From positions 1 through 22,249 of the forward strand of contig JABITU010000153.1 of the NCBI GenBank assembly GCA_018668195.1: a stretch of DNA of 22,249 nucleotides, read 5' to 3'. The notes beneath the pieces were generated by a model. The model made no database searches and was not told the origin of the DNA. It saw only the letters and a program-made list of their open reading frames with translations. The position numbers and the translations under genes were made by a program. Below, one piece after another: positions 10,536 to 21,638 of this stretch (positions are counted from its first letter, which is position 1; each line of letters starts with the position of its first letter). Origin of the DNA: Tateyamaria sp. (GTDB lineage Bacteria > Pseudomonadota > Alphaproteobacteria > Rhodobacterales > Rhodobacteraceae).

Positions 10536-11744
10536 ATGCCACACGACATGGACGACACTGTTCATTGGCACGAGCCACAGCGCGGAGAGCGAGCCGGGTA
10601 TGGCAAATTTGGGCAACCGCAATCTGACTACGACAAGTTCATGGAATCCGAAGGTATTCCGGTGTTTCGCGGGATTGGGATCAAGTCTGTCTTTGACCTA
10701 GAACTTGCCGATTGGCCCCGGATGGGCGGGCGTGGCAGCTATATTCAGCTGTACGGCACCGAAGGAAAATGGGGACAGTATGTTGTCGAGGTTCCCGGCG
10801 CCGGGGCGCTGAATACTGAAAAGCACTTGTACGAGGAAATCTTTCTTGTTGCCTCTGGCCGTGGCACGACAGAAGTTTGGCTGGAAGAAGGCGGCGAAAA
10901 GCATGTCTTCGAATGGCAAAGAGGATCGCTGTTTTCGATCCCCGTGAATGCCTATCACCGCATCGTTAATGCCACAGCAGAGCCTGCTTTGCTTATCGGC
11001 GGCACGACCGCCCCGAACCTGATGAACCTGCTGGGTGACACCGAACTGATCTACAATTGCCCATACAAAATGACAAGCCGGTTCTCTGGGACGGATGATT
11101 TTTACAAGTATAAAGAAGACCTTGAGCCCGATCCGATCCGCGGTCTTGCGATGCGCCGCACCAATCTCGTGCCCGATGTGATCGACTGCGACCTGCCTCT
11201 CGATAACCGGCGCTCTCCGGGCTATCGGCGGGTAGAGCCTTTCATGACAGGCAACAAATTCTACTTGTGGCTTGCGCAGCACGAAACAGGAAAATATTCG
11301 AAGGGGCACGCGCATACGTCCGCGGCCGTCCTGATCTGCATTAAGGGCAAAGGTTATACCTATACGTGGCCGGAACGCGCCGGGGAAACGCCGTTCGAAG
11401 ACGGCAAGGGCGATTTAGTCCAACGGCTGGATTACGAACAATTCGGTATGGTTACGGCCGCACCGGGAGGGGAACGCTGGTATCACCAGCACTTCAATTC
11501 GTCTTCGGAACCGTTCCGTCTGACGGCTTGGTTCGGGCCGAACCATCCGTCGCTGGTCACTGGGTTGCCGCCAGGCGCCAAACAGATCGACTACACCGCG
11601 ATGGACGTTACGGAAGGTGGCACGGCGATCCCCTATTGGATGGAAGACAAGAAATTGCGGACCGAGTTTGAAACGCTGATCGAATCCAATGGCGGCAAAA
11701 GTCGGATGGACCCCGCCCTTTACGACAAGCCCGACGACCAGTGA
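10536..11744 (+). CDS. Double-cupin protein, putative dioxygenase (gentisate-dioxygenase-like architecture)
   Basis: A 402-residue cytosolic protein with two cupin barrels. The first shows an altered metal motif: E95-K-H97-x3-E101, then H141 in NAYHRIV. The second has GHAHTS (H258, H260) and YHQHFN (H318, H320), but A264 stands where the conserved Glu usually is. Bicupins of this type include gentisate and 1-hydroxy-2-naphthoate dioxygenases, although those usually keep the metal site in the N-terminal barrel and are near 350 residues. The second barrel resembles the two single-cupin proteins encoded at 17384 and 17986. A strong GGGGAGGG precedes the ATG. It leads the operon and overlaps eutA (GTGA). 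Ring cleavage is plausible but unproven; an isomerase or binding role is the alternative. Confidence 0.78.
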   Translation: MPHDMDDTVHWHEPQRGERAGYGKFGQPQSDYDKFMESEGIPVFRGIGIKSVFDLELADWPRMGGRGSYIQLYGTEGKWGQYVVEVPGAGALNTEKHLYEEIFLVASGRGTTEVWLEEGGEKHVFEWQRGSLFSIPVNAYHRIVNATAEPALLIGGTTAPNLMNLLGDTELIYNCPYKMTSRFSGTDDFYKYKEDLEPDPIRGLAMRRTNLVPDVIDCDLPLDNRRSPGYRRVEPFMTGNKFYLWLAQHETGKYSKGHAHTSAAVLICIKGKGYTYTWPERAGETPFEDGKGDLVQRLDYEQFGMVTAAPGGERWYHQHFNSSSEPFRLTAWFGPNHPSLVTGLPPGAKQIDYTAMDVTEGGTAIPYWMEDKKLRTEFETLIESNGGKSRMDPALYDKPDDQ

Positions 11745-13222
11745 CAAAGGCGATGCACCCAGACGAGTTAGACGACGGTGGGCGCATCCACTTTTCGAGC
11801 GCTGGGCGTTCGTTGATTGAAGAGGATCAGATTGAGCTGACCAGTGTTGGCGTTGATATCGGGTCCTCTACATCGCATCTTTTGGTGTCCGTGCTCACGC
11901 TAGAGCGGATGGATACGCGCTATGTCGTGACAGGGCGCGAGGTTCGGTTTGAATCAGAAATTTTGCTGACTCCCTATGCGGAAGGCAATACGATTGATGC
12001 GGATGCTTTGGCCCGTTTCATTGATGCGCAGTATGTAGCCTCGGGCCTGACGCCAGAGGATATCGACACGGGTGCTTTGATCCTAACGGGAGTCGCTGCG
12101 CGCCGCTCTAACGCCCGCGCTATCGGTGAGATTTTCGCAGCGCAGGCGGGCAAGTTTGTAGCCGTCAGCGCGGGCGACGCACTTGAAACGCTGATGGCAG
12201 CCCATGGGTCTGGCGCTGTCGCTTTGTCCGAACAGTTGGGGACTGTCCTCAATATTGACGTTGGTGGCGGAACCACAAAGATTGCGCTTTGTCGTGACGG
12301 TGAGATCGTAGCGCGGACAGCACTTGATGCAGGGGCGCGGCTGATTGTGATTGGTGCAGACGACAGGATTACGCGGCTTGAACCATTCGGCGCGCAGTAC
12401 CTGTCTGAAATGGGCGTTAACCTTGGTGTCGGTGACATTCTGTCTGCAGACACCCGCAGCGACATAGCAAGCCGGATGGCTTCGGCTATTCTGTTGGCGG
12501 CGCGTGGCGAAGATGTGCCCGGCTTCATGCGTCTGCCGCAGCTCACGCAGGCTCCTGCCCTCGGCCAAATTGTCTTTTCCGGCGGCGTGTCCGAATTTCT
12601 GAACGGCAGCGGCGACGATACTGGCGATCTTGGGCCAGAACTGGCCCGCGCCTTGTCCGCGCTGGTGTTGGAACAAGGCTTTCAAGTCTCGCCTGCCCGA
12701 CAAGGCATTCGCGCGACGGTCGTTGGCGCTTCACAATATACGGTGCAGGTGTCTGGCTCGACGATCTATCTGGACCCGGACGACTCGCTCCCTTTGCGCA
12801 ACCTCGCGGTCATTGCCCCAACAGTCACACTGGGCGATGAGATTGACGCGACAGAGATAGCATGTGCGATCCAAGATGCCCTAGCCCGGCTTGATTTGCA
12901 GGACGGTGACACGCCTGTCGCTGTCGCTGTGCCTTGGCAGGGATCTGCAAGCTATGCGCGGCTGCGCGCTTTGGGCCAAGGGCTTGTCACTGGCCTGGCG
13001 CCCGTACTGGAAAAGCGGCACCCTTTGGTCATTGTCAGTGCAGGCGACATCGGTGGGCTGATCGGCATGCAGTGCCGCAGCGAAGAAAAAGTGCCCGGTG
13101 CCATCGTTTCGATTGACGGAATTGCGCTTTCAGAATTCGATTTCATCGATATCGGCGAAGTGTTGCGGGCAACCGGCGCAACACCAGTCGTCGTCAAATC
13201 GCTATTGTTCCCGACGGAGTAA
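11741..13222 (+). CDS. eutA: EutA-like ASKHA ATPase (reactivase-type chaperone), orphan
   Basis: A 493-residue protein resembling EutA, the ATP-dependent factor that swaps inactive for active adenosylcobalamin in ethanolamine ammonia-lyase. The actin/Hsp70-type nucleotide motifs are visible: phosphate 1 GVDIGSSTS (37-45), phosphate 2 NIDVGGGTTK (171-180) and the adenosine motif around FSGGVSEF. It is slightly longer than typical EutA. The GTG start at 11741 overlaps the cupin stop (GTGA); an ATG at 11753 is the alternative start. Its stop overlaps the next gene, tctB. No eutB, eutC or other B12 enzyme is in the window, so the client is unknown. It might be a cobalamin enzyme elsewhere or, less likely, the co-encoded cupin. 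The family call is firm; the role is open. Confidence 0.8.
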   Translation: MTKAMHPDELDDGGRIHFSSAGRSLIEEDQIELTSVGVDIGSSTSHLLVSVLTLERMDTRYVVTGREVRFESEILLTPYAEGNTIDADALARFIDAQYVASGLTPEDIDTGALILTGVAARRSNARAIGEIFAAQAGKFVAVSAGDALETLMAAHGSGAVALSEQLGTVLNIDVGGGTTKIALCRDGEIVARTALDAGARLIVIGADDRITRLEPFGAQYLSEMGVNLGVGDILSADTRSDIASRMASAILLAARGEDVPGFMRLPQLTQAPALGQIVFSGGVSEFLNGSGDDTGDLGPELARALSALVLEQGFQVSPARQGIRATVVGASQYTVQVSGSTIYLDPDDSLPLRNLAVIAPTVTLGDEIDATEIACAIQDALARLDLQDGDTPVAVAVPWQGSASYARLRALGQGLVTGLAPVLEKRHPLVIVSAGDIGGLIGMQCRSEEKVPGAIVSIDGIALSEFDFIDIGEVLRATGATPVVVKSLLFPTE

Positions 13223-13743
13223 TGATGGACGAACCCGATCCCCTTCAAGCCCCGCGGATTGTGACATCAATCTGGCCTGCAGTGCTGTTGTTGGCATTCG
13301 CAATTGTGACGTTCGTCGTTGCGCAAGGTTATTCAGCAACATCTGCGCGGTTCCCGTCAATGGTCGCAGGCGCGATGATCGTTTTGTCCGTGTTTGATAT
13401 CTGGAGCCGGACAAATCTGCCCGGTGCCAATACTGTTAAAACATTCGGGGGCACGGGTTTTCGCCAACGCGAGATGATGCATAACCCAAGCTTTGCCAAG
13501 CAGGCAGAATGTCTGGGCTGGATTGCTACCGCTTTTGCGATGATGGCGGCAATTGGGATTCTTGCCGCCTCACCGGTATTTTGTGCATCTTACGTGCGTT
13601 TTAAAGGAAACCGATCGTTTTCCGTTTCTGTTGGCGTTGGAATTGGCGTGCTGATTTTTCAGTTCGCAGTGTTTGAATGGGCTTTGAATTACGAACTTTA
13701 TCGTGGCCTGTTCTTTACGAAAGGTGGCGTCTCCGCGTGGTGA
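13222..13743 (+). CDS. tctB: TTT transporter small permease subunit TctB, set 2
   Basis: A 173-residue membrane protein with four hydrophobic segments and the TctB C-terminal signature ELYRGLFF, as in set 1. Its first ATG (13222) shares one base with the eutA TAA stop. A second in-frame ATG at 13225 is better placed relative to CGGAG (13215-13219), so the true N-terminus may be MDEPDPLQ. Translation should be coupled to eutA. Here tctB precedes tctC and tctA, whereas set 1 has the order C-A-B. Sequence similarity between the two TctB proteins is low, so the transporters need not share a substrate. Confidence 0.82.
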   Translation: MMDEPDPLQAPRIVTSIWPAVLLLAFAIVTFVVAQGYSATSARFPSMVAGAMIVLSVFDIWSRTNLPGANTVKTFGGTGFRQREMMHNPSFAKQAECLGWIATAFAMMAAIGILAASPVFCASYVRFKGNRSFSVSVGVGIGVLIFQFAVFEWALNYELYRGLFFTKGGVSAW

Positions 13744-13772
13744 CGGCGCTTGAAAACAAGGGAGGAAGTAAA

Positions 13773-14735
13773 ATGAAGAAGTTTCTAGTAACAGGCGCAA
13801 CAGCCGTTGCCCTGGTGACCGGAGGAGCCGCACACGCGGAATTCCCAATGGATGACAATATCACATTCGTGATTCCCTACAGCCCCGGCGGTGGATTTGA
13901 CACGATTGTGCGCCAATTCGCACCCGCAATGGAGCGAACAATGGGCACCACTGTCGTTCCTGAGAACATCTCAGGCGCGGGCGGTGCCCGTGGTGGACAA
14001 TCCGTGCACCGTGCAGATGCAGATGGATATACCATCGGGATCTATAACATTCCCGGCCTAACCGTGAACGAAGTCCTTGGAATGGATCAAGGCTTTAAGC
14101 TGGATGAAGTCACTTGGCTGGCAAACCTTGCAGTAGAAACCTATGCGCTTGCCGTAGCTGCCGATAGTGGCATCAATTCGGTCGAAGATCTGTGCGCATT
14201 AGATCAGCCCGCCAAGATGTCGGATACCGGCGCCACATCAACAGCCGCTGTTACAACGCGGATTACATTTGGTATCCTAGGTTGTGATATCGTTGACGTC
14301 ACAGGCTACGCCGGTTCGAACGACGCTATGATCGCTGTGATCAGTGGTGAGGTGAACGCTACAATCAAGCCTATCACATCGCTGACGAAATACCTTGATG
14401 GTGATGGTGGGACAGGAGACATGAAACTGATCCTGACATTAACCACCGAAGAAGCCGTGTCAGGCGTTCCGACTGCGACTGATATCGGACACCCCGAACT
14501 GGCCAAATTCACACTGAACCGCGTGATTGGTGGCCCTCCAGGTATGCCAGCCGAGGTGGTATCCGCACTTGAAGAAGGCCTGCGGGCTGCATCCGAAGAC
14601 CCAGAAGTCACGGCTTGGGCCGAAGGTGCAGGCGTTGGGCTTGAATTCATGAACACTGCCGACACCACGACGCTGATGAATGATTTAAGCTCTTTCTATC
14701 AGCAATACAAAGACCTTGCGGCTGTCGCAGAGTAA
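13773..14735 (+). CDS. tctC: TTT transporter substrate-binding protein (TctC/Bug family), set 2
   Basis: A 320-residue periplasmic binding protein. It begins MKKFLVTGATAVALVTGG with an A-H-A cleavage motif near residue 22. The mature part has the Bug signature YSPGGGFDTIVRQF and the second loop SGAGGARGG. The start at 13773 is set by GGAGGA 6 nt upstream; the longer open frame from 13677 overlaps tctB and lacks a signal peptide. A stem-loop follows the stop codon (14744-14769). C183 and C203 (approximate positions in the middle region, DLCALD and LGCDIVD) could form a disulfide. The ligand is unknown; a carboxylate made or used by the cupin/EutA operon is a reasonable inference. Confidence 0.88.
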   Translation: MKKFLVTGATAVALVTGGAAHAEFPMDDNITFVIPYSPGGGFDTIVRQFAPAMERTMGTTVVPENISGAGGARGGQSVHRADADGYTIGIYNIPGLTVNEVLGMDQGFKLDEVTWLANLAVETYALAVAADSGINSVEDLCALDQPAKMSDTGATSTAAVTTRITFGILGCDIVDVTGYAGSNDAMIAVISGEVNATIKPITSLTKYLDGDGGTGDMKLILTLTTEEAVSGVPTATDIGHPELAKFTLNRVIGGPPGMPAEVVSALEEGLRAASEDPEVTAWAEGAGVGLEFMNTADTTTLMNDLSSFYQQYKDLAAVAE

Positions 14736-14789: not shown

Positions 14790-16310
14790 ATGGGCTTAGA
14801 CGCACTTCTTGACGCTTTCTTATCTGTCCTGAATGGAGGCAGCTTAACGTTCCTGATGGCTGGCGTATTGCTTGGCCTGACCTTTGGCGTGATCCCCGGC
14901 TTGGGCGGCACGACGGCTTTGGCGCTGTTGATTCCTGTGACCTACACGCTAGACCCGCTTTCGGCGATGTATCTGGCGGGCGGCGTCATGGGGGCGACGT
15001 CATTTGGTGGCTCTATATCTGCGATCCTTTTGAACACGCCAGGAACCGCACCTAATGCGGCGACTTGCTTTGATGGCTATCCGCTTGCGCGGCAGGGTAA
15101 GGCTGGAATGGCGATTGGGGCATCAGCGACAGCCTCTGCGTTGGGGGGCTTGATCGGGCTGTTCACATTGCTGCTGTTCATTCCGGTCGCACGCGAAGTT
15201 GTCCTGAGTTTTGGATCTTCGGAATTCTTTCTTTTGACCGTCCTAGGGCTTGCCGCAATTGCCGTTTCAATCAAGGGCAAGCTTTTGCGCGGCCTGATTG
15301 CGGCCTGTATCGGTCTGTTGCTTGCCTTCACCGGGGCCAACCAATTTACGGGCGAAACGCGGTTCACAGGTGGGATCAATTATCTATGGGAAGGAATCCC
15401 TTTGGTTCCTGCCCTGACCGGATTATTCGCGATTAGTCAAATGATCGAACTGGCGCTTAAGGGCGGCTCTGTCGCTGACGATGAGACGGTGAAAGAAGCC
15501 AAGAATATGAGAATCACAGGGGTGTCTGAGGGCGTGTTTGCGGTCTTCAAGCACTGGCCTGTCCTTTTGCGCGGTTCCTTGATCGGCACGGTCATTGGCG
15601 CAATCCCCGGACTTGGCGGCACTGTCGCGTCGTTCCTGAGCTATTCATCTACGGCCCAAACAGCCAAGGATCGCGATACCTTTGGCAAAGGTAATATCAA
15701 AGGCGTGATCGCACCCGAAGCAGCCAATAACGCCAAAGACGGCGGCTCGCTTATTCCGACGGTCGCCTTTGGCATCCCCGGAAGCGCAGAAACGGCTGTA
15801 TTCCTAGGTATCCTTGTCCTGCACGGGATCGAACCTGGCCCGCAAATTCTTTTGCAAAACGAACGTGAAATCTATGGGTTGATTGTTGCCCTAACCGTAT
15901 CCGCGATTGCAGCATCCGTACTGGGTCTGATATTTGCGCGCCTCCTCGTTCTTATTACAAGGATCGATGTGAACATTGTGGTTCCAGTCGTCGTGACCTT
16001 GTCATTAACAGGTGTCTACGTGCTTGAAGGGCGCATGGCAGATGTGGCCGTTGCCACGATCATTGGTATTTTCGGCTATCTGATGATCCGCTTTGACTAC
16101 CCCAGACTGACACTGGTCATCGCTTTTGTTTTGGGCGAAATTGCCGAACGATCCTATCATCAAGTCCGCCTCATCTCGGATGGGAACGTCATGGAATATA
16201 TGTTGGGTCGCCCGATTTCGGTTATTTTGATCATTGCGACAATTATAACATTCTTCTTGCCAGCCATGCGCAAACTACCTTGGCGGCGTATGGTGGGTCG
16301 CGCGATATGA
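14790..16310 (+). CDS. tctA: TTT transporter large permease subunit TctA, set 2
   Basis: A 506-residue polytopic permease with the paired TctA motifs GVIPGLGGTTALAL (near residue 33) and GAIPGLGGTVASF (near residue 270), the second followed by DRDTFGKGN, PEAANNA and FGIPGSAE. It is clearly a homologue of the set 1 TctA but diverged, including an N61-like LNTPGTAPNA segment where set 1 has STPGTGQNA. No good ribosome-binding site precedes the ATG at 14790, so expression may be kept low relative to tctC. Its stop overlaps the methyltransferase start in an ATGA arrangement. Confidence 0.92.
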   Translation: MGLDALLDAFLSVLNGGSLTFLMAGVLLGLTFGVIPGLGGTTALALLIPVTYTLDPLSAMYLAGGVMGATSFGGSISAILLNTPGTAPNAATCFDGYPLARQGKAGMAIGASATASALGGLIGLFTLLLFIPVAREVVLSFGSSEFFLLTVLGLAAIAVSIKGKLLRGLIAACIGLLLAFTGANQFTGETRFTGGINYLWEGIPLVPALTGLFAISQMIELALKGGSVADDETVKEAKNMRITGVSEGVFAVFKHWPVLLRGSLIGTVIGAIPGLGGTVASFLSYSSTAQTAKDRDTFGKGNIKGVIAPEAANNAKDGGSLIPTVAFGIPGSAETAVFLGILVLHGIEPGPQILLQNEREIYGLIVALTVSAIAASVLGLIFARLLVLITRIDVNIVVPVVVTLSLTGVYVLEGRMADVAVATIIGIFGYLMIRFDYPRLTLVIAFVLGEIAERSYHQVRLISDGNVMEYMLGRPISVILIIATIITFFLPAMRKLPWRRMVGRAI

Positions 16311-17383: not shown

Positions 17384-17986
17384 ATGGATGAAAAAAAAGA
17401 CACCCCCGAAACCGAAGCCGAAATCGGCCCTGCAGGTTACTATCACAGCCAAAAGGACCGCATCTTTGTGCGGGCCATCCAAGGCGAATACAATCTGCAA
17501 TGGGAGCTGGATCGCGTGCGCGCCATGCCCCGTGTCCGCAAGGCCAAAGACATTAAATTCGTGGACGGCCCACAGGCCTACTCACGCCATTACGTGGAAC
17601 CCAAAGATGGCATCAGCCAGCTGTTCCATTTGCACCTTGAAGAATACGGCCCCGGCGGCAAAAGCCAGAAGCATGGGCACGTGAACGAAGCGGCGTTCTA
17701 TATCCTTGACGGTGAAGGATATGAAATACACGACGACATTCGCTATGATTGGAAAGCCGGTGATGTGGCCATTGTGCACAACAACTGCGTCCACCAGCAC
17801 TTCAACGCCTCTGACACCAAGCCCGCCCGCGCGCTTGTGCTGAAAACCAAACCGATGTTCGTCTTCATGAACATGCTGTTCCAAAAAACTGTTGAGCCGC
17901 GTGATACCTTCCCCGCCCCTGGTGGCGAGGATTTCGTCGTGCGCGAGGAAGAAGAAGATCACAACCATCCCGAGGGGGGCTATTAA
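17384..17986 (+). CDS. Single-domain cupin protein (first of a coupled pair)
   Basis: A 200-residue soluble protein with one cupin barrel. The metal-binding motif 1 is KHGHVNEAAF (H97, H99, E102) and motif 2 is CVHQHFN (H137, H139), so a mononuclear Fe, Mn or Ni site is likely. The acidic, His-containing tail (EEEEDHNHPEGGY) has no obvious counterpart. The barrel aligns with its neighbour and with barrel 2 of the double-cupin at 10536. Its TAA stop shares one base with the next ATG. The two might form a heteromeric enzyme, perhaps a dioxygenase acting on an aromatic diol acid; that is inference. The ATG at 17384 has only a weak purine-rich upstream site. Confidence 0.77.
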   Translation: MDEKKDTPETEAEIGPAGYYHSQKDRIFVRAIQGEYNLQWELDRVRAMPRVRKAKDIKFVDGPQAYSRHYVEPKDGISQLFHLHLEEYGPGGKSQKHGHVNEAAFYILDGEGYEIHDDIRYDWKAGDVAIVHNNCVHQHFNASDTKPARALVLKTKPMFVFMNMLFQKTVEPRDTFPAPGGEDFVVREEEEDHNHPEGGY

Positions 17987-18588
17987 TGGCGTGGGATGAA
18001 GTAAGCAGTTGGCTTGAGGGTATTGAAAACCAACCCTTGTACCAAGACCTTTTGGATGACGCTGCCGCCCGCCCAGCCCGCGATGCAGAGCGAAAGAAGG
18101 TAGTACATCCGCATGAAATGCCCTGGGATATGTCTCGGCAGGGCCTACTGAAGCACCTGATCAATGAGAGCATGAACACCCGCATTGAAACGGTCGATGC
18201 CTACATGCAGATCGTGCCGCCAGGGTCCAAGTCTGGCAAGCACCGGCATTTGGCGGAAGAGTGTCTTTATGTGCTTGAAGGCAAAGGCTATGATTTGCAT
18301 CAGGATTGTGATGTGGAGATTACTGACACCTATTTCTGGAAACCGCAGGATAAGGTGTCACGCTGGGAATACGAAGCGGGCGATGTCATCTATGTGCCGC
18401 CGAACACGATCCACCAGCATTTTAATGCGGACCCAGAAAAACCTCTCCGCTTGATTTCCGTTATTAACCGTATCTTCAAGCAATGTGGCCTGAACGATCT
18501 GGAACAGATCGAAGACGCGCCCGAATATGACCCAGCGGTCATATTATCACCGGAACTGGTCCGAGATTTTTTGCGCGGAAAAGCCTGA
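17986..18588 (+). CDS. Single-domain cupin protein (second of a coupled pair)
   Basis: A 200-residue soluble protein. Its cupin motifs are GKHRHLAEECLY (H86, H88, E91/E92) and TIHQHFN (H143, H145), giving an intact 3-His/1-Glu set. The first ~60 residues are charged and non-cupin, and the C-terminal ~40 residues are acidic. A strong GAGGGGGG precedes the ATG, inside the end of the previous gene, and the start overlaps that gene's stop by one base. Tight coupling to the first cupin suggests equal amounts of the two proteins. Alternatives to a dioxygenase role are an isomerase, or a regulatory or binding cupin. Confidence 0.77.
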   Translation: MAWDEVSSWLEGIENQPLYQDLLDDAAARPARDAERKKVVHPHEMPWDMSRQGLLKHLINESMNTRIETVDAYMQIVPPGSKSGKHRHLAEECLYVLEGKGYDLHQDCDVEITDTYFWKPQDKVSRWEYEAGDVIYVPPNTIHQHFNADPEKPLRLISVINRIFKQCGLNDLEQIEDAPEYDPAVILSPELVRDFLRGKA

Positions 18589-19881: not shown

Positions 19882-19939
19882 AAAAAGGCGCGTATTCATA
19901 GCGGGTATGCAGCAGATGCATTGCTATAAGACGCGCGCC
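19882..19939 (-). terminator. Intrinsic terminator of the CobW-aldolase-hydratase operon
   Basis: On the minus strand an imperfect long hairpin starts inside the last codons of the hydratase gene (GGCGCG at 19939-19934, then a TATAGC segment). It closes with GCTATG and CGCGCC (19892-19887), followed by TTTTT (19886-19882). An inner ATGCA/TGCAT pair extends the structure. The long loop and interior mismatches lower certainty. Confidence 0.6.
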
Positions 19940-20943
19940 TTGAGTGCAGCATCAAGGCGGGGATAAACTCTGCGGGCGTTGCCTTCAAAGACCTTTGCGC
20001 GCTCTGCGTCAGTTATGTCCAAGGCATCAATGTAACGTTTGGTGTCATCAAAGTTATGCCCGGATTCGGGGTCAACGCCCTTTACCGCGCCAAACATTTC
20101 TGAGGCAAACAAGATGTTGTCAATGTCGATCACTTTGAACAGGCAGTCAATTCCGGGCTGATGATAAACACATGTATCAAAGTAGACGTTACGCATCACA
20201 TGGTCGCGCAGCGGTGGTTTGCCCATCATATCCGCCAAGCCCCGGTAGCGCCCCCAGTGATAAGGCACTGCACCGCCACCATGCGGAATGATCAGGCGTA
20301 AGTCGGGGAAGTCGGCAAACAAATCGCCTTGCAGGAATTGCATGAAGGCCGTGGTGTCAGCGTTGATGTAATGTGCTCCAGTCATGTGAAAGTTTGCATT
20401 ACATGATCCAGAAACATGGATCATCGCGGGAACGTCCAGTTCGACCATCTTTTCAAAAAACGGATACCATGCGCGGTCGGTCAGCGGCACACCCGTCCAC
20501 ATGCCCCCACTTGGATCAGGATTCAGGTTACAACCGACAAAGCCGAGTTCCGTGACGCAGCGCTCCAATTCCTCAATAGCATTTGCAATTGGTACTTTTG
20601 GGTTCTGCGGCAACTGGCAGACGCCGATGAAGTTATCCGGGAAAAGATGCGTGACCCGATGGATCATATCGTTGCTGTGCCGGGTCCAGACCTTTGACAC
20701 GGCCTCGTCCCCGATATGGTGGCCCATACCCGATGCGCGCGGGCTGAAGATCGTCATATCCGCCCCGCGATCTTTCAACGCTTTCAGCTGATTGGCTTCT
20801 ACACTTTCGCGGATTTCATCATCAGAGATTTCGGGAAACGATGGCATTGGGCCGCCAGTTTCAAAGGCTGCAACCTGCGCCTTGCGGAAATCCATGAACG
20901 GCTTTGGTTCGGTCGTGTAGTGCCCGTGGCAATCAATAATCAT
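19924..20943 (-). CDS. ligJ: 4-Oxalomesaconate hydratase-like amidohydrolase (LigJ type)
   Basis: A 339-residue metal-dependent protein of the amidohydrolase_2/ACMSD fold. LigJ hydrates 4-oxalomesaconate to 4-carboxy-4-hydroxy-2-oxoadipate in the protocatechuate-4,5-cleavage and gallate pathways. Visible features: the opening MIIDCHGHYTT with metal ligands H6 and H8, NLNPDPSGG at 139-147, H176 in MIHVSGS, HGGGAVPYHWGR (H221), and an acidic residue E282 in SEMFG where many amidohydrolases use Asp. Length and N-terminus match LigJ. The start overlaps the stop of the upstream aldolase gene (ATGA), whose product would cleave LigJ's product, so the pair supports the assignment. Other gamma-resorcylate- or ACMSD-type activities remain possible. 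Confidence 0.82.
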   Translation of the reverse strand: MIIDCHGHYTTEPKPFMDFRKAQVAAFETGGPMPSFPEISDDEIRESVEANQLKALKDRGADMTIFSPRASGMGHHIGDEAVSKVWTRHSNDMIHRVTHLFPDNFIGVCQLPQNPKVPIANAIEELERCVTELGFVGCNLNPDPSGGMWTGVPLTDRAWYPFFEKMVELDVPAMIHVSGSCNANFHMTGAHYINADTTAFMQFLQGDLFADFPDLRLIIPHGGGAVPYHWGRYRGLADMMGKPPLRDHVMRNVYFDTCVYHQPGIDCLFKVIDIDNILFASEMFGAVKGVDPESGHNFDDTKRYIDALDITDAERAKVFEGNARRVYPRLDAALKARVL

Positions 20944-21638
20944 TGGCCGCGCTCCCAGTCTGCTTGACTGACATAGGTCAGCCCTTTTTCCTTAAGACGG
21001 CCGCGCATGTCATTGACATCAAGACCCAATTCACCTGCCTGATACCGAAGGCGGGATTGTTCTTCTTTTTCGATGCGCGCCTGCGACGCTTTCACAACCG
21101 CCCCGGCCGTCAAACGCGGCACAACAACAACGCCATCGTCATCCGCCACGATCACATCTCCGGGCCGTACGATTTCATCGCCGCAGGACACCGGGACATT
21201 CACATCACCCAAGACTTCCTTGACTGTTCCATGCGCCGAGATCGAGCGGGACCAGACCGGAAATCCTAAAGCCTCTAGATCGCGGATATCTCGGCACCCA
21301 GCATCAAGGATCAAACCCGTGACACCGTGCGCTTTCAATGAAGTACCCAGTAGATCGCCAAAGTACCCCGAATGCGATTCGGAAATTGTGGCGGCAACAA
21401 GCACATCGCCTGGTTGGCATTGTTCAACCGCGACATGGATCATCCAGTTGTCACCGGGGGCTAAGGTGCATGTCACCACCGTCCCGCTGATCGCGGCACC
21501 TTTGTAGATCGGGCGCAGCCGATGGTGCATCAGCCCGGTGCGGCCCTGAGCTTCATGCACGGTGGCGACACCATATTGCGCCAAGGCTTTGGTGGCTTCT
21601 GCATCTGCGCGTTTGATATCTGTTACGACAACCGGCAT
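20940..21638 (-). CDS. ligK: RraA-like 4-carboxy-4-hydroxy-2-oxoadipate aldolase (LigK/GalC type)
   Basis: A 232-residue RraA-fold class II aldolase. LigK/GalC enzymes split 4-carboxy-4-hydroxy-2-oxoadipate to pyruvate and oxaloacetate and also decarboxylate oxaloacetate. The family landmarks are ATVHEAQGRTG near residue 25, PGDNWMIHVA near 60, the catalytic loop GYFGDLLGTSLKAHG (91-105), the metal/substrate motif AGCRDIRDLEALGFPV (113-128), and ADDDGVVVVP. The C-terminal ~40-residue charged extension is found in the HMG/CHA aldolase branch but not in the RraA RNase E inhibitor. AGGAG precedes the ATG. It follows the CobW gene by 14 nt and overlaps ligJ. Confidence 0.85.
   Translation of the reverse strand: MPVVVTDIKRADAEATKALAQYGVATVHEAQGRTGLMHHRLRPIYKGAAISGTVVTCTLAPGDNWMIHVAVEQCQPGDVLVAATISESHSGYFGDLLGTSLKAHGVTGLILDAGCRDIRDLEALGFPVWSRSISAHGTVKEVLGDVNVPVSCGDEIVRPGDVIVADDDGVVVVPRLTAGAVVKASQARIEKEEQSRLRYQAGELGLDVNDMRGRLKEKGLTYVSQADWERGQ

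Follow-up and report, generated by a model that had tools for sequence, protein, structure and literature searches.

The stretch of DNA analysed here (the window) comprises 22,249 nucleotides of Tateyamaria sp. (Rhodobacteraceae; contig JABITU010000153.1) and contains a gene for an ASKHA-fold ATPase of the EutA family, which lies directly downstream of a gene for a double-cupin protein (the bicupin). The subject of this report is the relationship between these two proteins. Their genes overlap by four nucleotides, GTGA, in which the GTG start codon of the EutA-like gene (from position 11741) runs into the TGA stop codon of the bicupin gene (11742-11744). At its other end, the TAA stop codon of the EutA-like gene (13220-13222) shares one base with the ATG of tctB, a gene of a tripartite tricarboxylate transporter (TTT). 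Neither EutB, EutC nor any other B12-enzyme family was found by Pfam in the 20 open reading frames (ORFs) of the window that were scanned, and tblastn with haloarchaeal EutB and EutC gave no match in the window. Thus, the DNA itself, Pfam and tblastn all agree with the initial annotation, which had described an orphan EutA-like gene overlapping the cupin gene by four nucleotides and tctB by one, with no eutBC nearby. The EutA-like protein remains below the cut-offs of all four NCBIfam EutA equivalog models listed (294 vs 598, 235 vs 769, 197 vs 799 and 190 vs 952), so "EutA" is used here as a family name only. The features of the two genes are as follows; "cupin-type" and "eutBC-type" are the two types of EutA-family protein distinguished below.

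10536-11744, forward strand: bicupin, 402 residues, fold like that of gentisate/salicylate dioxygenases (Pfam Cupin_2 and predicted structure)
10563-10577, forward strand: HWHEP, residues 10-14 of the bicupin, an N-terminal tail motif characteristic of clade I, to which the window belongs
11307-11315, forward strand: H258-A-H260, predicted to bind the metal, in the bicupin's second cupin (H258 in 132 and H260 in 131 of 135 bicupins)
11484-11492, forward strand: H317-Q-H319, predicted metal ligand or ligands in the second cupin of the bicupin (H317 in 133 and H319 in 134 of 135 bicupins)
11741-11744, forward strand: GTGA, four-nucleotide overlap of bicupin stop and EutA-like start (read from the DNA)
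11741-13222, forward strand: EutA-like ASKHA ATPase, GTG start, 493 residues (PF06277 at residues 32-490, 350.9 bits against a cut-off of 27; tree; structure model with a mean predicted local distance difference test score, pLDDT, of 82.8)
11807-11827, forward strand: RSLIEED, residues 23-29 of the EutA-like protein, conserved in close relatives (alignment of 20 sequences)
11855-11872, forward strand: DIGSST, residues 39-44, which we take to be a phosphate-1-like motif (G37, D39 and G41 each in 124 of 125 cupin-type proteins, with one gap, and in 9/9 eutBC-type)
12185-12187, forward strand: E149, invariant glutamate (125/125 cupin-type, 9/9 eutBC-type)
12257-12277, forward strand: DVGGGTT, phosphate-2-like motif, residues 173-179, followed by K180 (D173, G175 and G176 in 125/125 and 9/9)
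12581-12586, forward strand: G281-G282, adenosine-like motif (125/125 cupin-type, 9/9 eutBC-type)

In the model of the EutA-like protein, residues 1-26 have a pLDDT below 50. Compared with EutA itself (PF06277), the protein has the full-length domain at about 30-35% identity, and the ATP-site residues and E149 are common to both; it differs from EutA in having a bicupin rather than EutBC as partner, in its longer N-terminus and in diagnostic residues. One of these is position 180, which is K in the cupin-type (fraction 1.0 of 125) and N in 9/9 eutBC-type proteins. In a FastTree phylogeny, for which the program warned of long branches, seven eutBC-linked EutAs (E. coli, Klebsiella, Cetobacterium, Acetoanaerobium and three haloarchaea, their linkage taken from annotation or tblastn) are split from 125 others with a support of 100. 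The clade labels I, IIa and IIb used below were cut by us from such trees.

Relatives were gathered in a scan of a genome collection with an alignment of 20 relatives, by EutA similarity only. Of 8000 candidates scored against the window's EutA-like protein, 7930 are related to it at E <= 0.001, and true EutA may be among them. The best 80 of at least 518 confirmed loci were compared; their genes were called by an ORF script, so that starts are often too long, and some genes were fetched twice (e.g. L069 and L094). The genome-wide tests were run on relatives of the window rather than on its own genome. In 56/80 loci, a bicupin ORF lies directly upstream of the EutA-like gene on the same strand (gap below 300 base pairs); in 9/80 it lies 1.1-5.0 kb upstream, and 1/80 is cut by a contig end. 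EutB or EutC was found by tblastn in none of the 80. Of 128 family members (from the window, the fetched loci and extra copies; three are eutBC-linked proteins of haloarchaea), a bicupin lies within 1.5 kb in 89, of which 72 are in the order cupin-to-EutA, 11 divergent and six in the order EutA-to-cupin. The linkage occurs in loci of Alpha-, Beta- and Gammaproteobacteria and Chloroflexota, and in the window's own clade there is mostly one bicupin per EutA, with the genes often overlapping or closely spaced.

The same survey separates the bicupin from the transporter. Against a count of 83 for the EutA cluster itself, a cupin is present near EutA in 61 loci and TctA-like genes in 19. In Sinorhizobium and Phyllobacterium, the neighbours of the pair are a LigXa-type Rieske oxygenase and an aldolase of class II rather than a TTT. 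The TTT was therefore rejected as a functional partner, being lineage-restricted, and is incidental to the EutA-like protein, whereas the bicupin is its constant partner, and this partnership is well supported. Thus, of the functional linkage proposed in the initial annotation, to a double cupin and to a carboxylate transporter, the first half is supported and the second is not.

The two proteins also vary together. Distances in the EutA tree and the bicupin tree correlate with r = 0.74 (maximum of 1000 permutations, 0.23), and within two groups with 0.48 and 0.59 (permutation maxima of 0.23 and 0.37, respectively), values in which the Mantel permutation leaves shared species history. Several cupin-type EutA clades each have their own bicupins, as parallel paralogues; pairing by nearest gap gave five clade-IIb EutAs a clade-I bicupin. 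A search for fusions found one in-frame bicupin-EutA fusion among 26 proteins (P0148, 599 residues, with a truncated EutA and no contig), which is too weak to lean on. The EutA-like protein also occurs in other fusions, TctB-EutA (P0072) and EutA with a major facilitator superfamily protein (P0135, P0138).

Phylogenetic profiles were drawn from three evenly drawn samples that include their seeds: 142 genomes from the class of G001 (Alphaproteobacteria), 185 from the class of G041 (Gammaproteobacteria in the GTDB sense) and 121 from the phylum of G037 (Chloroflexota), the groups being named from the titles of the seed genomes. In this order, the numbers of positive genomes are 4, 3 and 10 for EutA, 4, 2 and 10 for the bicupin profile, and 11, 11 and 7 for EutB. 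The same four alphaproteobacterial genomes carry EutA and bicupin, and none of them has EutB. In Chloroflexota, EutA and bicupin coincide in 9/10, and the tenth EutA genome (G403) has its EutA beside EutB. In Gammaproteobacteria, the seed has EutA, bicupin and EutB, and G336 has EutA beside EutB; a further genome, G320, gave a short cupin match only. Over the pooled 448 genomes, 14 have both EutA and bicupin, three EutA only, two bicupin only and 429 neither (P = 7e-22; without the three seeds, 9e-18). This co-occurrence, together with the linkage across phyla, supports one of the two options of the initial annotation, in which an enzyme that does not use B12 has recruited an ASKHA ATPase.

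The numbers of the two genes per genome are informative as well, bearing in mind that bicupin numbers are lower bounds where only part of the candidates was scored. G163 has at least 13 bicupins and two EutAs, and G037, G388, G413 and G431 have at least 15 bicupins each with 3 to 10 EutA matches (in G037, at least 15 to 3). The other genomes have near-equal numbers, one of them (G440) having one bicupin and two EutAs. In one operon (L123), three bicupins are followed by one EutA. In G037, which belongs to SAR202-VII-2, seven tandem bicupins lie by an iron-dependent repressor and a Rieske gene (L125, 5753-14507), with no EutA in the 19 kb of that locus. Some Chloroflexota, including SAR202-VII-2, have a greatly enlarged bicupin family, and many bicupins per EutA would fit better with a shared helper than with a fixed enzyme subunit.

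What kind of protein is the bicupin? It has one Pfam Cupin_2 match, and its predicted structure fits two-barrel cupins over most of its length, including the two-cupin fold of gentisate/salicylate 1,2-dioxygenases, to which it has about 12% identity; the structure-comparison lists for the bicupin and for the EutA-like protein show fold only, and unlisted families may also match. NCBIfam gave no match for the bicupin. EutQ, the cupin of eut operons, was rejected as its identity, there being no Pfam EutQ match. An H[WY]HEP motif is present in 54/135 bicupins across all clades. The bicupin is probably a ring-cleaving dioxygenase of the gentisate/salicylate type.

A clue to the role of the ATPase is provided by its tails. 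In a survey of 148 family members, in which HxH was sought in the last 55 residues before G37, an N-terminal HxH was found in 10/10 members of clade IIa, 22/23 of clade IIb and 17/20 unplaced cupin-type members (49/53 outside clade I), and in 0/9 eutBC-type proteins. C-terminal tails with at least six His are present in 23/23 members of clade IIb and 1/20 unplaced ones, and polyHis C-tails in 0/9 eutBC-type. In clade I, it is the bicupin that carries HxH, before residue 32 in 55/61 paired bicupins, which in the window's bicupin is the HWHEP. The neighbouring genes point to metal too. The transporter family NicO (PF03824) has 64 genes in 42 of 50 genomes that carry the module, and 17 of them lie within 6 kb of an EutA gene where 0.59 would be expected, a count taken from match-table coordinates (64 NicO genes and 128 long EutA matches, split matches merged by hand) that leaves out shorter EutA matches and rows not listed. 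The 17 genomes, named after their loci, comprise eight Alphaproteobacteria besides Phyllobacterium (seven of them Rhodobacterales-like or related), three Phyllobacterium, five Burkholderiales and one SAR202. In Phyllobacterium, a nickel/cobalt transporter and NikR lie directly beyond EutA, and in Noviherbaspirillum, NikR lies directly upstream of the pair in divergent orientation, with a TonB receptor beyond the pair. Several relatives of the window have a clade-IIb pair with NicO at a distance of about 18 kb. Nickel would thus be favoured by NikR and NicO, with cobalt also a candidate and iron possible.

EutA is described as removing damaged cobalamin from EutBC with ATP (PMC5821096). By analogy, the EutA-like ATPase would bind the bicupin and help it to hold a divalent metal, most likely Ni2+ or Co2+ and possibly Fe2+: the ATPase would hold the metal, open its client and use ATP to insert the metal or to swap out one that has been lost or oxidised, just as EutA exchanges cobalamin that has been damaged in EutBC. 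In clade I, to which the window belongs, it is the bicupin and not the ATPase whose tail bears His. The metal act is proposed because the protein belongs to the EutA family, has intact ATP-site residues, has a metal enzyme as client and, in clades other than the window's, has metal-binding tails. That the two proteins are helper ATPase and client is very probable. Whether metal insertion or exchange is what the helper does is, on this analogy, an evenly balanced question, and the combined statement, that this ASKHA-fold ATPase is a dedicated helper that inserts or exchanges the metal of the adjoining bicupin, is given the same even chance. Nickel or cobalt as the metal is a tentative suggestion. 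More tentative still is the general form of the proposal, in which such EutA-family ATPases would be a new class of enzyme that uses ATP to insert nickel or cobalt into, or to reactivate, the members of a widespread and uncharacterised family of metal-dependent ring-cleaving bicupins. The His tail that docks the metal would belong to the ATPase in most clades, but to the bicupin in that of the window.

Two known systems can be compared. HypB-type nickel chaperones combine a nucleoside triphosphatase domain with a His-rich tail. The EutA-like family resembles them in its nucleoside triphosphatase-type domain and, in clades other than the window's, in a His-rich tail and nickel-transport neighbours; it differs in having an ASKHA fold rather than that of a GTPase and a bicupin as client, and in that the window's clade lacks the tail. 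The second is QueD, a cupin whose likely cofactor is nickel, and which thus provides a precedent for a nickel/cobalt cupin dioxygenase; QueD tolerates a four-His site, in that its 4-His variant keeps residual activity (PMC4416304). It differs in that its cell-free synthesis with Ni2+ yields active enzyme, and the abstract of that paper mentions no EutA-like partner (PMC4416304). Among the open-licence papers listed by literature searches, no title or start of an abstract links EutA with this bicupin or with nickel.

Several observations weigh against the proposal. Regarding the pairing, 14/80 loci have no bicupin upstream on the same strand, three of these being contigs under 5 kb; in L039, L054, L071, L082 (Chloroflexota) and L085, aldo/keto reductase, amidase or phosphatase genes lie downstream of EutA instead, and in L050 bicupins are present on the opposite strand. 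In the profiles, G202 (Gammaproteobacteria) carries a partial EutA but lacks bicupin and EutB alike, and G381 (Chloroflexota) has a bicupin without EutA. Regarding the bicupin, gentisate dioxygenases have a three-His metal site in the first cupin. The bicupins do not show this arrangement: in their first cupin, H97 is present in 99/135 and H141 in 90/135, and the conserved cluster of H258, H260, H317 and H319, which are near-invariant, sits in the second cupin. Foldseek ranks MncA, oxalate decarboxylase and seed globulins highest for the bicupin, and a dioxygenase is therefore only one of the identities that its fold allows; in sequence, 3bu7 is matched over one cupin only, and oxalate-decarboxylase-type bicupins match the window's bicupin nearly as well as gentisate/salicylate dioxygenases do. 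Regarding the metal, an HxH tail on the ATPase is present in only 1/86 of clade I, and the window's protein lacks the His-rich segment that marks nickel metallochaperones among nucleoside triphosphatases. No nickel gene (NicO, NikR, or other nickel uptake or regulation) was found in the window. Of the 17 NicO hits near EutA, three are below the family cut-off, and the 17 fall in about five lineages and so are not independent. Besides nickel, NicO transports cobalt, and certain members of its family are exporters.

The alternative that survives best, unlikely as it is, would make the EutA-like protein an enzyme of the pathway, which either phosphorylates the substrate or joins the bicupin as one of the two subunits of an ATP-dependent enzyme, for which ASKHA kinases and subunits of the acetone-carboxylase type are the analogies. 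Kinases are indeed among its structural matches, the genes in the window's clade are usually one to one and overlapping or close, and there is the fusion record P0148. However, its similarity to a known reactivase is full-length, with E149 and the ATP-site residues common to eutBC-type EutA; several genomes have more bicupins than EutAs; and metal-binding tails would be odd for a kinase. The other option of the initial annotation, a reactivase for an unrecognised cobalamin enzyme, here one in the pathway of the bicupin with NicO supplying cobalt for B12, is improbable. It is suggested by family membership and by the NicO and CobW-like genes nearby, which could serve cobalt. Against this, Pfam found no B12 enzyme in the window or in the scanned neighbour proteins (part of all neighbours), and Rfam at its gathering threshold gave no match in the window, hence no cobalamin riboswitch there, nor in seven related loci; the His tails suggest a metal bound by the protein itself.

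The reading of the gene as an ordinary EutA, serving an ethanolamine ammonia-lyase encoded elsewhere in the genome, is largely refuted and very improbable. Besides the PF06277 match, it has in its favour three eutBC loci among the 50 module-bearing genomes (L086-L088) with no EutA in the 3.5-4.3 kb around them, two of these with none in 17 and 10 kb. Thus, a eutBC elsewhere without a eutA of its own, which the initial annotation had considered, is seen in a few relatives, and does not account for the rest: EutA is present in all 50 genomes, EutB in seven (one a fragment), and 43 have no EutB match, some of these being incomplete assemblies. In the pooled samples, EutB accompanies EutA in 3/17 EutA-positive genomes (3/448; P = 0.09), in two of which EutA lies beside EutB, and the tree places the eutBC-linked proteins on a separate branch. 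In three Rhizobiales genomes (G030, G032, G045), EutB homologues lie in frames of 787-802 residues, longer than EutB (matches near E-141 to E-143), and are possibly fused to another domain. Equally improbable is a reduction of oxidised bicupin metal in the manner of the ASKHA activators of 2-hydroxyacyl-CoA dehydratases: two of these (1hux, 4ehu) are among the best structural matches, the sequence search of the PDB having given ASKHA relatives at weak scores only, but Fe-S reductive activation was rejected because no Cys column for a cluster is conserved family-wide (best column 90/125).

Around the pair, the window holds two TTT sets, a thiamine pyrophosphate enzyme, other transporters and two small cupins, with an amidohydrolase, an RraA-like aldolase and a CobW-like C-terminal domain at its right end. 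Directly downstream of the pair are:

13222-13743, forward strand: tctB (Pfam; lineage-specific neighbour)
13677-14735, forward strand: tctC ORF (Pfam; lineage-specific neighbour)
14790-16310, forward strand: tctA of the second TTT set (PF01970, 438.6 bits)

The nearest named loci are from Rhodobacteraceae (L006, 76%). At 19924-21638 on the reverse strand, the Amidohydro_2 and RraA-like genes overlap by four nucleotides; they adjoin the EutA-bicupin pair in several Rhodobacteraceae-like loci, and resemble the LigJ/LigK pair of the lower protocatechuate-4,5/gallate pathway. The two small cupin genes (17384-18588, forward strand) adjoin each other, encode 200 residues each, are 74-92% conserved in Rhodobacteraceae-like loci and recur in two Burkholderiales-type operons with a clade-IIb EutA (L095, L109). 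Elsewhere, a conserved protein of about 180 residues without a Pfam match (L101, 11774-12304, and relatives) occurs in 22 loci, two of which contain the same gene, mostly with the LigXa-type Rieske gene, and adjoins NicO in L099-L104.

The name "EutA, ethanolamine ammonia-lyase reactivating factor" is probably wrong for many of the proteins that bear it. In many bacteria of the ocean and of soil, their usual partner appears to be the bicupin family, which in Proteobacteria occurs beside genes for oxygenases and transporters. Should the metal reading prove correct, an ATPase family known for the repair of B12 would have the upkeep of a simple metal site as a further task, the aerobic breakdown of aromatic compounds would come to involve nickel or cobalt, and there would be a testable helper that must be added when such bicupins are assayed.

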